From an uncultured Alphaproteobacteria bacterium (lineage in GTDB: Bacteria > Pseudomonadota > Alphaproteobacteria > UBA7879 > VGCX01): a DNA stretch of 34,723 nucleotides. The stretch is from the NCBI GenBank assembly GCA_913061155.1, contig CAJXSI010000012.1:1-34723 (forward strand). Reading direction: 5' to 3'. The notes beneath the pieces were generated by a model. That model was given only the letters and a program-made list of their open reading frames with translations, searched no databases and was not told the DNA's origin. Below, piece after piece: positions 20,647 through 24,171 of the stretch (its first letter is position 1; each line of letters starts with the position of its first letter). A program made the position numbers and the translations under genes.

Positions 20647-21243
20647 ATGAAAATTAAACATAAAAAACCAAAAACATTCAGGGATAAGTTTGCTTATGCT
20701 TTGGTTAAATTCATGCGTATTTTTGCTGATGCTTTCTTTCGAAAACGATATGGCCACCGGGCTGTTGTTTTGGAAACTGTTGCGGCCGTCCCGGGGATGG
20801 TTGGGGCCGGCTTAATTCACTTTAAATGCTTGCGTCGTATCCAAGATGATAAAGGTTGGATCCATGAATTATTGGAAGAGGCCGATAACGAACGTATGCA
20901 CCTTATGACTTTTATTAAAGTTGCCCACCCTTCGTTTTTGGAACGTTTACTGATTGTCGCAGCGCAATTCTTTTTCATTATTTTTTATACTTTGATGTAT
21001 ATATTATCTGCAAAAACAGCTCATCGTTTTGTTGGTTATTTAGAAGAAGAGGCTGTTCATAGCTATACCGAATATTTAAAAGAAATTGATGCAGGGCGAT
21101 TGCTTAATGAACCTGCCCCAGAAATTGCCATTAAATATTGGAAGCTTAACAAGGACGCAACATTAAGGGATGTTGTTTTAATTGTTCGCGAAGACGAAGC
21201 CCTGCACCGGGATGTGAACCATAAATTTGCTGATGAATTATAA
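20647..21243 (+). CDS. aox: alternative oxidase (ubiquinol oxidase, AOX family)
   Basis: 198 residues, short like bacterial AOX. All four di-iron ligand motifs are present: Glu43 in VLET, Glu82 and His85 in [15 protein letters not shown] (133-140), and Glu184 and His187 in [12 protein letters not shown]. Hydrophobic helices at about 46-58 and 103-120 fit the monotopic membrane attachment of the family. AOX oxidises ubiquinol and reduces O2 to water without proton pumping, giving a respiration branch that resists cyanide and nitric oxide. The mitochondrial enzyme is thought to descend from alphaproteobacterial AOX. A second, truncated AOX tail occurs at 22891-22939. Confidence 0.93.
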
Positions 21244-21271
21244 AAACAAAACTTAGGGGTGTCGCACACAA

Positions 21272-22030
21272 TCAATGGTTTTTTGTTGCGGCCTTTTGTT
21301 TGAAAATAAATACAAGCAGGAAAATGGCAGAAATTAAAACCAATGACGCCGTATAACGATTTAATGCCAACCCACCGTGATCAGTTGGTTTGTCCAAGAA
21401 ATCGCCTACAACAGCACCTAAAGGGCGCGTTAGAATAAAGGCAGCCCAAAAAAGAAAAGTACGAGAAATCGCAGTTGTAAAATAAAAGACGACCAAGACA
21501 AGTAATAACCCGCCAAATATCCCTGCTGAGAAAAGGTATCCTAATGAAGCTGTGTCCGCTGTCCAATCCCCAACTGCCGTCCCAAGTGTTTGGGAAAACA
21601 TGATGGTTACCCAATAAAAAACTTCGGATTTTGTTGATATAACAGAACGGATTGAGATACTGCCGGTGGCTTGATACCAAGTAAATAAAGAAAGTAATAA
21701 TAAAATTAAAATAACAGAAGATCCACCCGTATAGCCAATGTTAAGGGATCTATCTGCAAAATCAGCAAAAGTTGTTCCAACAGTTGTTGAGGCGATAATT
21801 GTTATCCAATAAATCCCAGGGTGAAATTTGGGGCTTTTTATTTGTGCGATGACGGCAAGAACAAAGATCGCCAAAAAAATTGCGCTGCCGACCAGATACC
21901 CTAGTTTCATAGACATTGAAACAGCGTCTCCGCCTGTTTCGCCTAAGGTTGTGGCAAATATTTTTATAATCCAAAATACCAGAGTGACCTCTGGGACCTT
22001 GCTTAGTCCTTTTTTAGTTTTTTGATTCAT
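21272..22030 (-). CDS. COG4705-type multi-pass membrane protein with internal repeats
   Basis: 252 residues, about eight membrane helices. A motif recurs four times: ATTLGETGGDAVS, STTVGTTFADFAD, SQTLGTAVGDWTAD and TRPLGAVVGDFLD. This fourfold T-LG---GD pattern is characteristic of the uncharacterised COG4705 membrane proteins and points to internal duplication, with the Asp residues likely placed inside the membrane fold. Function is not established; a transport or ion-binding role is only a guess. It converges on the alternative oxidase (28 bases between stops) and has a long, AT-rich upstream region ending in the first tRNA-Glu fragment. Confidence 0.75.
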   Translation of the reverse strand: MNQKTKKGLSKVPEVTLVFWIIKIFATTLGETGGDAVSMSMKLGYLVGSAIFLAIFVLAVIAQIKSPKFHPGIYWITIIASTTVGTTFADFADRSLNIGYTGGSSVILILLLLSLFTWYQATGSISIRSVISTKSEVFYWVTIMFSQTLGTAVGDWTADTASLGYLFSAGIFGGLLLVLVVFYFTTAISRTFLFWAAFILTRPLGAVVGDFLDKPTDHGGLALNRYTASLVLISAIFLLVFIFKQKAATKNH

Positions 22031-22102
22031 TGTAATTCTCCCCCTGTTTTTTATAATTTAACATAAAAAGACAAAAGAAATTACTTTTTTGAAAATTTGA
22101 AA

Positions 22103-22142
22103 TAAAAAATTATAAATGGTGTCCCCTACGGGAGTCGAACCC
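22103..22142. repeat. left 40-bp direct repeat containing tRNA-Glu 3' end (fragment 1)
   Basis: Perfect match to 22824-22863. Its right 26 bases (22117-22142) equal the minus-strand tRNA-Glu 3' end including CCA and most of the T-arm; its left 14 bases (TAAAAAATTATAAA) are not tRNA sequence and are shared only between these two repeats, not with the complete tRNA. It touches the stop codon of the PIN-domain gene without a gap. The pattern is that of an attachment-site pair left by tRNA-targeted integration. Confidence 0.85.
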
Positions 22143-22811
22143 TTAATTGAGTAAAGTAAGCATATCTATAAATTCCTCAGGAGTTTTCAGAACAGGATAT
22201 TCAAGTTTTTCATTTTTTTTCAAGAGTCCTTTATCCCAAGTTAAAAAATAACCATGTCCTTTCCATGTTTCAGTGGATTGGTAAATATGAGTTAAGTCTT
22301 TTTCCATATTTTTGAATTTAGAATTGCCTTTGTTTTCATTAATAAATTTATCTGTTTTTTCTTTCTGGTTATATTCGCGAACACTAAAAAAATAGTGCAT
22401 TTTATCGTTTCTTTTATTATTTCCAATTTCATCTGTAACTGAGGATGGTTCAGTAAGAATTATAATTTTTGCGTTGCTTAAGGCTTTGAGCCATTCATAG
22501 TGATCTTTCTTACTTTTATCCAAAATAACATTACTATCAATTACTATCGGTATAGGAAGTTTTTCCCCTGGGTTAAAATAGAATATTCTTAAATTTTTTG
22601 CAGCAGATATGACCTTCGCATACTCTAGGGCTTCCCAGGGATAAAATTCCTGATTATTCCTAGCTGATATTTCATTTATGTAGTTATGGGGCCATTCTTT
22701 TAAAGGCTCAATGACGCCGTTCTTGTTTATTAGATCAACGTGCGTTATGTAAGTTTGGTTTAATTGGTTATCTAATTGATCTTTAGTATAAATTACTACT
22801 GCTTTTTGCAT
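22143..22811 (-). CDS. PIN-domain protein, orphan, bracketed by tRNA-Glu-derived repeats
   Basis: 222 residues. The C-terminal half (about 86-215) has the PIN nuclease layout: a strand ending in IVIDSNVILD (Asp92), an acidic residue in SVTDEIG (Glu128), and GYFLTWDKGLLKK (Asp193) before a final helix (TPEEFIDML). PIN proteins are Mg2+-dependent ribonucleases, many of them VapC toxins that cut tRNA or rRNA. The first 85 residues are an extension I do not recognise, longer than in VapC. No small antitoxin gene lies beside it. It is AT-rich, ends exactly at a tRNA-Glu fragment and starts 13 bases before the other repeat, so it is probably the cargo of a small integrated element. PIN assignment is by motif only. 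Confidence 0.6.
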   Translation of the reverse strand: MQKAVVIYTKDQLDNQLNQTYITHVDLINKNGVIEPLKEWPHNYINEISARNNQEFYPWEALEYAKVISAAKNLRIFYFNPGEKLPIPIVIDSNVILDKSKKDHYEWLKALSNAKIIILTEPSSVTDEIGNNKRNDKMHYFFSVREYNQKEKTDKFINENKGNSKFKNMEKDLTHIYQSTETWKGHGYFLTWDKGLLKKNEKLEYPVLKTPEEFIDMLTLLN

Positions 22812-22823
22812 TTTTTCTATTCT

Positions 22824-22863
22824 TAAAAAATTATAAATGGTGTCCCCTACGGGAGTCGAACCC
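22824..22863. repeat. right 40-bp direct repeat containing tRNA-Glu 3' end
   Basis: Identical to 22103-22142, in direct orientation, 721 bases apart. Here the tRNA match continues to the right beyond the repeat. Confidence 0.85.
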
Positions 22864-22890
22864 GTGTTACCGCCTTGAGAAGGCGGTGTC
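22838..22890 (-). pseudogene. tRNA-Glu fragment 2 (3' part only)
   Basis: 53 bases identical to 24096-24148 of the complete tRNA-Glu: the CCA end, T-arm, variable region and full anticodon arm with TTC. The D-arm and 5' acceptor strand are absent; the sequence changes abruptly at 22891. It cannot fold into a tRNA and marks an old integration or deletion boundary. Confidence 0.9.
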
Positions 22891-22939
22891 TTGCACCAGG
22901 GATGGGGATGTGAACCATAAATTTGCCGATAGTCTTTAA
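22891..22939 (+). pseudogene. fragment of a second alternative oxidase gene (3' tail)
   Basis: TTGCACC, a 7-base insertion, then GGGATGTGAACCATAAATTT and GC match 21209-21230 of the intact AOX gene perfectly over 22 bases; the frame reads [10 protein letters not shown] and a TAA, against [10 protein letters not shown] in the intact gene. The last codons differ, so this is a remnant of a separate AOX copy and not a recent slip duplicate. It is fused on its left to tRNA-Glu fragment 2, and its stop codon overlaps that of the convergent lipoprotein gene. Confidence 0.8.
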
Positions 22940-23553
22940 GTGACGCTATGTAATCCGTCGCGAATATACAAAGATCCTATTTCAACAAGTTGGCGGATTG
23001 CTTCTACAGCGGCAGCTTGCGCACCTTTTTCTCCCGAACATCCCATAGAGTCATTACAGCCTTTCCCACTTACTTTGAATTCTTTTTGAAATTGCAGGCC
23101 AGATTTTCCAAAAGAAGACACAATAGCATTCAAATCTATTGTTGTTTCAATATTGCTTGTAAAGAACCCTGGGTTAACACTAAACCCAGACGCAGCATTT
23201 CCTTGAAGAATACTTATTTGTGCGTTGTAGCCCTTGTCATTTAATTCTTGTTTTGTTAATACACGATCATAAAAAGTTATATTTTCAAGAGAATTTTCTA
23301 ATAAGCTTTTCATGGATTTTTTATAAGAAGAATTTAAATCAATTTTATGTTTCCAAGCGGAGCAGGCAAATCCTTTTGCTTTAGATTTCAACACCCATCC
23401 CCCAGTTTGAATATAAGCCGCATAATTCCCTTTTATTTTTTTCAAGCCAACCGGCGTGCTTACGTCTACATTGTGGACATTTATAGTAGATGTGCAATTA
23501 CTAAGAAGGGCAAATAGAATACATAAACATAAATTTTTTAGGGGACTAGTCAT
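22936..23553 (-). CDS. lipoprotein of unknown function
   Basis: 205 residues with a type II signal peptide: hydrophobic LCLCILFALLSNC, lipobox LLSNC with the lipidated Cys at about residue 19. The mature part is a mixed alpha/beta domain with two cysteine-containing segments (GFACSAW; GKGCNDSMGCSGEKGAQ) that could form disulfides, and a helix AAAVEAIRQLVEIG near the end. I do not recognise the family. Its start overlaps the end of the SlyB-like gene by 8 bases, so the pair is surely one operon and may act together in the outer membrane. Its stop overlaps the AOX remnant, so its final residues may be a product of the rearrangement. Confidence 0.7.
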   Translation of the reverse strand: MTSPLKNLCLCILFALLSNCTSTINVHNVDVSTPVGLKKIKGNYAAYIQTGGWVLKSKAKGFACSAWKHKIDLNSSYKKSMKSLLENSLENITFYDRVLTKQELNDKGYNAQISILQGNAASGFSVNPGFFTSNIETTIDLNAIVSSFGKSGLQFQKEFKVSGKGCNDSMGCSGEKGAQAAAVEAIRQLVEIGSLYIRDGLHSVT

Positions 23554-24073
23554 TTATTTTAATTCCTTTAGGTCTTTTTATTTCAGTTGGTAAATCTTCG
23601 GCAGGAAGCACCCTTTGGAACCCACCTGTATTCTGCACAATAACACGTGAGTTAACAGGTAAGGGGGTTTCTTTTTTAGGGAGTTCTTGGACAGCGGTTA
23701 TAACAACGCCATTTTCCAAGACAACAGTATATTCAACACCTTCACGGTCAGAAAACCCTTGTTCAATTAAATAACCGATTATGCCACCCGCAACTGCACC
23801 TATGCCTACAGCCCAAGCAGTTCCTGAATTTCCGCCAACATATGAACCGCCTCCTGCACCCGCAGCCCCGACAACACCAGCAGTAATACCACTATTTTTT
23901 CCAATAATTCCAATTGAACGGGATTTTATAATTGTTCCAAAGGTAACTGCAGTTGTTTTTCCAACCTCATCATAATTATAAATATCTCTACCTGGCCGCT
24001 TGCAGCTTGTAATATTTAAAGAAATAAATAAAACAGTTAAAATTTTTAATTTAGAAAATATATGTTTTTTCAT
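23546..24073 (-). CDS. SlyB/PcP-like outer-membrane lipoprotein (17-kDa antigen family)
   Basis: 175 residues. Signal peptide with lipobox ITSC (Cys at about 24), then a glycine-zipper membrane domain (GITAGVVGAAGAGGGSYVGG and AVGIGAVAGGIIGYLIEQG, about 62-108), then the soluble part with EYTVVLENG and V-SRVIVQNTGGFQRVLP. This is the SlyB/PcP architecture, related to the Rickettsia 17-kDa surface antigen. SlyB forms oligomers that stabilise outer-membrane proteins under envelope stress in enterics; that role here is inference. The start lies 22 bases after the tRNA-Glu 3' end in the same direction, so transcription may run from the tRNA promoter. Confidence 0.87.
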   Translation of the reverse strand: MKKHIFSKLKILTVLFISLNITSCKRPGRDIYNYDEVGKTTAVTFGTIIKSRSIGIIGKNSGITAGVVGAAGAGGGSYVGGNSGTAWAVGIGAVAGGIIGYLIEQGFSDREGVEYTVVLENGVVITAVQELPKKETPLPVNSRVIVQNTGGFQRVLPAEDLPTEIKRPKGIKIND

Positions 24074-24095
24074 GTCAATCGCTCTGTTTTTGTTT

Positions 24096-24171
24096 TGGTG
24101 TCCCCTACGGGAGTCGAACCCGTGTTACCGCCTTGAGAAGGCGGTGTCCTAGGCCACTAGACGAAGGGGAC
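24096..24171 (-). tRNA. tRNA-Glu (anticodon TTC), complete
   Basis: 76 bases including an encoded CCA. Acceptor GTCCCCT pairs with AGGGGAC; the anticodon stem CCGCC/GGCGG carries the loop with TTC; the T-arm is ACGGGTTCGACTCCCGT. Two partial copies of its 3' end lie at 22117-22142 and 22838-22890, both downstream in the tRNA's direction. Confidence 0.97.

Follow-up and report, generated by a model that had tools for sequence, protein, structure and literature searches.

Where several 3' fragments of a tRNA follow one another, they are usually taken as traces left by integrase islands. Canonical tRNA islands consist of an intact tRNA gene, an interval and a 3' fragment in the same orientation, and tandem arrays of them are known; the Islander criteria require an integrase within the interval, a length of 2-200 kb and, in a tandem array, a separate integrase and fragment for each island, and the known integrase sublocations within tRNA genes include the anticodon arm and the T arm (PMC4383910). 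Additive flexible islands also use a tRNA as a repeated insertion point. Cassettes with tRNA direct repeats have been described in 'Ca. Actinomarinales', with one such locus at a tRNA-Glu (PMC7771536), and the final 20 nt of tRNA-Lys recur as repeats that mark the islands of Methylophilaceae fGI-2, from 330 bp to 42 kb in size (PMC10872708); both are streamlined genomes. In Alteromonas fGI1, a conserved tRNA is the insertion target for gene cassettes (PMC4119200). Homology-assisted illegitimate recombination has been discussed as a source of short variable segments (PMC2884548).

The locus analysed here lies in a stretch of 34,723 nt (the window) from the draft genome, in 51 contigs, of an uncultured Alphaproteobacteria bacterium, and the joints at its tRNA-Glu rest on the assembly as given. 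The features, in outward order from the tRNA, are as follows; the "PIN" and "lipoprotein" labels are guesses from sequence.

24096-24171, minus strand: intact tRNA-Glu(CTC) (ARAGORN; Rfam RF00005, 62 bits)
23546-24073, minus strand: lipo2, a 175-aa glycine-zipper-like putative lipoprotein with a weak PF05433 match, starting 22 nt behind the tRNA
22936-23553, minus strand: lipo1, a 205-aa putative lipoprotein, its stop overlapping that of the AOX remnant
22891-22939, plus strand: remnant (3' end only) of an alternative oxidase (AOX) gene, matching the AOX 3' end at 25/26 nt and directly joined to fragment 2
22838-22890, minus strand: tRNA-Glu fragment 2, exact tRNA positions 24-76 (53/53 identical)
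22824-22837, minus strand: 14-nt 3' flank of fragment 2, the same as that of fragment 1
22143-22811, minus strand: PIN-like orphan gene, 222 aa, starting 12 nt past the 14-nt flank and with its stop exactly at fragment 1
22117-22142, minus strand: tRNA-Glu fragment 1, exact tRNA positions 51-76 (26/26 identical)
22103-22116, minus strand: 14-nt 3' flank of fragment 1
21272-22030, minus strand: DUF347 (COG4705) membrane protein gene, the first gene beyond the insertions
20647-21243, plus strand: intact AOX gene

The tRNA-Glu fragments and a tRNA-Lys island in the same genome

The complete tRNA gene of the initial annotation was recovered by both ARAGORN and Rfam, and its two 3' copies proved to be exact and on the same strand (blastn within the window, E 8e-18 for fragment 2 and 3e-5 for fragment 1). 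Both fragments keep the orientation of tRNA-Glu and are nested outward from the intact gene. They start at position 24, near the anticodon arm (fragment 2), and position 51, near the T arm (fragment 1), and take in the anticodon arm and the greater part of the T arm. A further 14 nt downstream (TTTATAATTTTTTA) are common to both fragments and absent behind the intact tRNA, which has a different 3' flank, as would be expected if each new tRNA copy arrived with new DNA. The 26 nt of tRNA and the 14-nt flank together make a 40-nt exact direct repeat (22103-22142 and 22824-22863). When the genome was queried with the last 56 nt of 40 of its own tRNAs, the scan returned the tRNAs themselves and only three fragments, two of tRNA-Glu and one of tRNA-Lys(CTT); the tRNA-Glu signal is therefore specific and beyond chance. 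The fragment sequence is unchanged over 79 nt, corresponding to a divergence since insertion of less than ~4% (95% confidence), so both insertions are young by comparison with the separation from any relative compared.

The tRNA-Lys(CTT) fragment served as a positive control. It is an exact 49-nt copy of positions 28-76. On contig 42, where it lies, a tyrosine integrase gene encoding an Arm-DNA-bind_3 domain begins 142 nt away from it. Within this integrase gene, the end of contig 6 and the beginning of contig 42 share an overlap of exactly 55 nt. Contig 6 carries the intact tRNA-Lys(CTT), with Toprim/primase-like (Toprim/DUF7146) and DUF3987 genes between it and the fragment. This is a canonical P4-like integrase island of ~9.4 kb (contig 6:41675-49964 and contig 42:1-1235), and it fits the published description of tRNA islands (PMC4383910). 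Integrase islands at tRNAs thus occur in this genome, and the tRNA-Glu locus does not look like one.

At tRNA-Glu, the 3' fragments lie downstream of the tRNA in the same orientation, as in canonical islands (PMC4383910), and each tandem member has its fragment but none has an integrase. Neither interval holds an integrase or a recognisable phage integration gene among its ORFs or in family searches, in agreement with the initial annotation, and contigs 2, 6 and 42 are the only ones of the genome with a PF00589 match. The repeat spacings of 721 and 1258 nt (intervals of ~0.7 and 1.2 kb) are below the 2 kb to 200 kb range. As the tRNA pieces and the genes are separated by only 22, 12 and 0 nt, there is also no space for attP arms or integrase arm-binding sites. 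In contrast, each cassette ends in a direct repeat of the 3' part of the tRNA, as in additive flexible islands, which can likewise be very small, and by this analogy the pattern appears to match theirs (PMC7771536, PMC10872708, PMC4119200). Those islands were recognised by comparing strains, whereas the tRNA-Glu locus was read from one genome. The same small genome has a regular integrase island behind one tRNA and, behind another, micro-cassettes that lack an integrase.

An AOX remnant fused to fragment 2, and the cassette genes

The initial annotation had missed the AOX remnant. A search of the locus against its own genome matched 22905-22930 to the 3' end of the intact AOX gene at 25/26 nt, with a score of 23, whereas the best of 300 shuffles scored 17 (whole window searched). 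The match extends to TGCACC across a 7-nt insertion, and the remnant is in frame to its stop (last 10 residues read for both the remnant and the intact gene). Its stop overlaps that of lipo1, resembling a natural convergent pair, and on its other side the AOX coding sequence runs straight into tRNA position 24. This fusion of an AOX 3' end to a tRNA fragment is new here. Carrying the truncated end of a neighbouring gene sets the cassette apart from those of the additive flexible islands and points to where its DNA came from. The same stretch in the AOX genes of two same-family genomes (G001 and G002) has many differing positions, while the remnant is 25/26 identical to the AOX gene of its own genome; the remnant thus stems either from the species itself or from one very closely akin to it.

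In those two genomes and in other members of the order, tRNA-Glu and AOX lie in unrelated neighbourhoods with no synteny, and a scan of named genomes gave 34 AOX loci, none of them syntenic at the tRNA. Among the same-family genomes, the order members and the 34 AOX loci, no donor or empty-site genome was found.

Of 289 genomes of the class, 76 have relatives of lipo2, and lipo2 and lipo1 are adjacent in two other alphaproteobacterial families (genomes G131 and G209), as expected for chromosomal genes. The 36-nt repeat pattern and the cassette proteins were also searched for in viral contigs, phages and plasmids. For lipo1 there was no match in viral contigs or plasmids, and for lipo2 only distant Azospirillum relatives were found. 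The PIN-like protein had no match in viral contigs, phages or plasmids and no relative among 398 genomes of the phylum except in its own genome. The gene that the initial annotation placed between the fragments is present, with a GC content of 30% compared to 40% for the window, but its assignment as a PIN domain is tentative: the PF13638 match (E 0.0096) is below the cut-off and the D, E, D motifs were found by eye. An AlphaFold model made without relatives had a mean pLDDT of 34 and was set aside.

Possible origins of the insertions

Repeated insertion at the 3' end of tRNA-Glu, with the newest insertion adjoining the tRNA, is well supported by the order, orientation and exact identity of the fragments, their coverage of the tRNA arms and the tRNA-Lys positive control. 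This part of the initial annotation, which had proposed successive integrase-mediated integrations, therefore stands. Its proposal of integrase-borne elements is not supported, given the missing integrase, the lack of room for attP arms, the length of less than 2 kb and the truncated chromosomal AOX gene that abuts fragment 2 where an element end would be expected. We lean slightly towards an account in which 22103-24095 consists of two successive small insertions of the additive tRNA cassette kind, the proximal block coming from the chromosome of a close relative.

The ancestral locus would have read, in the direction of the tRNA, tRNA-Glu, TTTATAATTTTTTA, DUF347 and AOX. A block of tRNA 3' end, flank and PIN-like gene would then have been added, with the previous tRNA end left on the outer side to become fragment 1; the second block, made up of tRNA, lipoprotein pair and cut-off AOX 3' end, would have done the same with the tRNA end then in place, now fragment 2. 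The source of the lipoprotein block was probably the chromosome of a close relative with its own allele of this locus, and this donor could have had the order AOX, lipo1, lipo2, tRNA-Glu, with AOX converging on the other three. One side of the block may have been anchored by recombination inside the shared tRNA sequence and the other formed by a non-homologous join between the AOX remnant and tRNA position 24, through RecA-type or homology-facilitated illegitimate recombination. The process described earlier (PMC2884548) has a homologous anchor, a non-homologous join and the gain of a short segment from a relative; here it would be deduced from anatomy only, and two joins in one tRNA gene would be unusual. 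The identity of the tRNA copies is compatible with such an anchor. For the PIN-like block, which the exact 40-nt repeat flanks, a single crossover and a site-specific recombinase are both possible sources, and this cassette by itself does not tell an integrase apart from homologous exchange by one crossover. A further reading, which we consider rather unlikely, needs no recombinase of its own: incoming AOX-to-tRNA alleles from relatives would be added instead of replacing the resident one, because the crossover is confined to the conserved tRNA. If that were true, the locus would be a layered record of population alleles, with cut-off neighbour genes marking the layers.

Two independent non-homologous joins inside one 76-nt tRNA gene would be an odd coincidence unless crossover is somehow favoured there, and this counts against the account we favour, as do the ambiguity of the PIN-like cassette and the fact that no donor or empty site turned up among the genomes compared. 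A tRNA-specific recombinase would remove the coincidence, and two readings with a recombinase were therefore kept. One, which is unlikely but deserves serious consideration, is that two integrase elements integrated in turn and then lost nearly everything, leaving one and two cargo genes. The starts of the fragments, near the anticodon arm (24) and the T arm (51), are at known integrase sublocations (PMC4383910), the identity of fragment 2 stops precisely at the 3' end of the tRNA, and an integrase island is present at the tRNA-Lys of the same genome. However, the fragments carry no changes and are hence young, whereas every integration gene and attP arm would already be gone, the deletions would have had to stop exactly at the fragment edges, and the AOX remnant abuts fragment 2. 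It is less likely still that a simple recombinase, either Xer-like or from another element, worked on the tRNA sequence and moved the cassettes in trans, so that they needed no integrase or arm sites of their own. Such a process would suit compact cassettes made only of a gene and a repeat, with the crossover limited to the tRNA, and tyrosine recombinases do occur elsewhere in the genome, but the genome's one island integrase is at tRNA-Lys and not at tRNA-Glu, no recognition site is defined and the AOX scar is not explained by this process alone.

The remaining readings start from the AOX sequence or from the assembly. It seems very improbable that the key repeat is the AOX 3' end, with 21235-22908 (DUF347, fragment 1, PIN-like gene and fragment 2) inserted as a unit into AOX and the remnant being the old AOX 3' end. 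The AOX 3' end and the remnant are indeed direct repeats with sharp edges, and the remnant and lipo1 form a natural convergent pair; the unit, however, would have to carry two tRNA-Glu fragments identical to the adjacent tRNA, which is natural only if these fragments were made there. We give hardly any credence to a local tandem duplication with deletions, or to a mis-assembly of mixed strains at short repeats. The genome is a draft of 51 contigs, the two repeats (53 and 40 nt) are slightly shorter than the 55-nt overlap of contigs 6 and 42, and the donor AOX is local. Against this, the lipoprotein, PIN-like and DUF347 genes have no duplicate copy, the joint between AOX and tRNA lies in unique sequence, and the remnant differs from the intact AOX by a substitution, an insertion and its C-terminal codons.

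Under the favoured account of two small additive insertions, the scar in the lipoprotein cassette suggests ordinary chromosomal DNA of a close relative and not a classic virus-like island. Should this hold up, finding tRNA fragments in a streamlined genome would not have to mean that mobile elements were involved.

Other observations

In genome G131 (contig 23, stretch L179, 8270-9569), the lipo2-lipo1 pair lies directly behind the 3' end of a tRNA-His. The pair was considered as a tRNA-hopping unit and this was rejected, as G131 has no tRNA-His fragment and most other relatives of lipo2 have no tRNA close by.

At 2641-2841 of the window there is a putative tyrosine recombinase C-terminus remnant (HWLRHT..VRNDVGHSSSAITDRY), with no tRNA nearby. 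A match to the XerS C-terminus (E 0.0015) lends weak support to the integrase remnant reported there by the initial annotation, and comparison with the Xer and island integrases of the genome gave no useful match.

ARAGORN also called a second "tRNA-Glu" of 72 nt at 22838-22909, which consists of fragment 2 and 19 nt of other sequence. Its Rfam score of 27.2 bits is below the cut-off of 29, its D arm is poor and its acceptor stem mispairs, and a functional second tRNA-Glu was therefore discarded as the main reading. As its 5' part is antisense AOX sequence, which by accident pairs partly as an acceptor stem, 22838-22909 is a chimeric pseudo-tRNA, which could be entered as a tRNA gene when a genome is annotated automatically.
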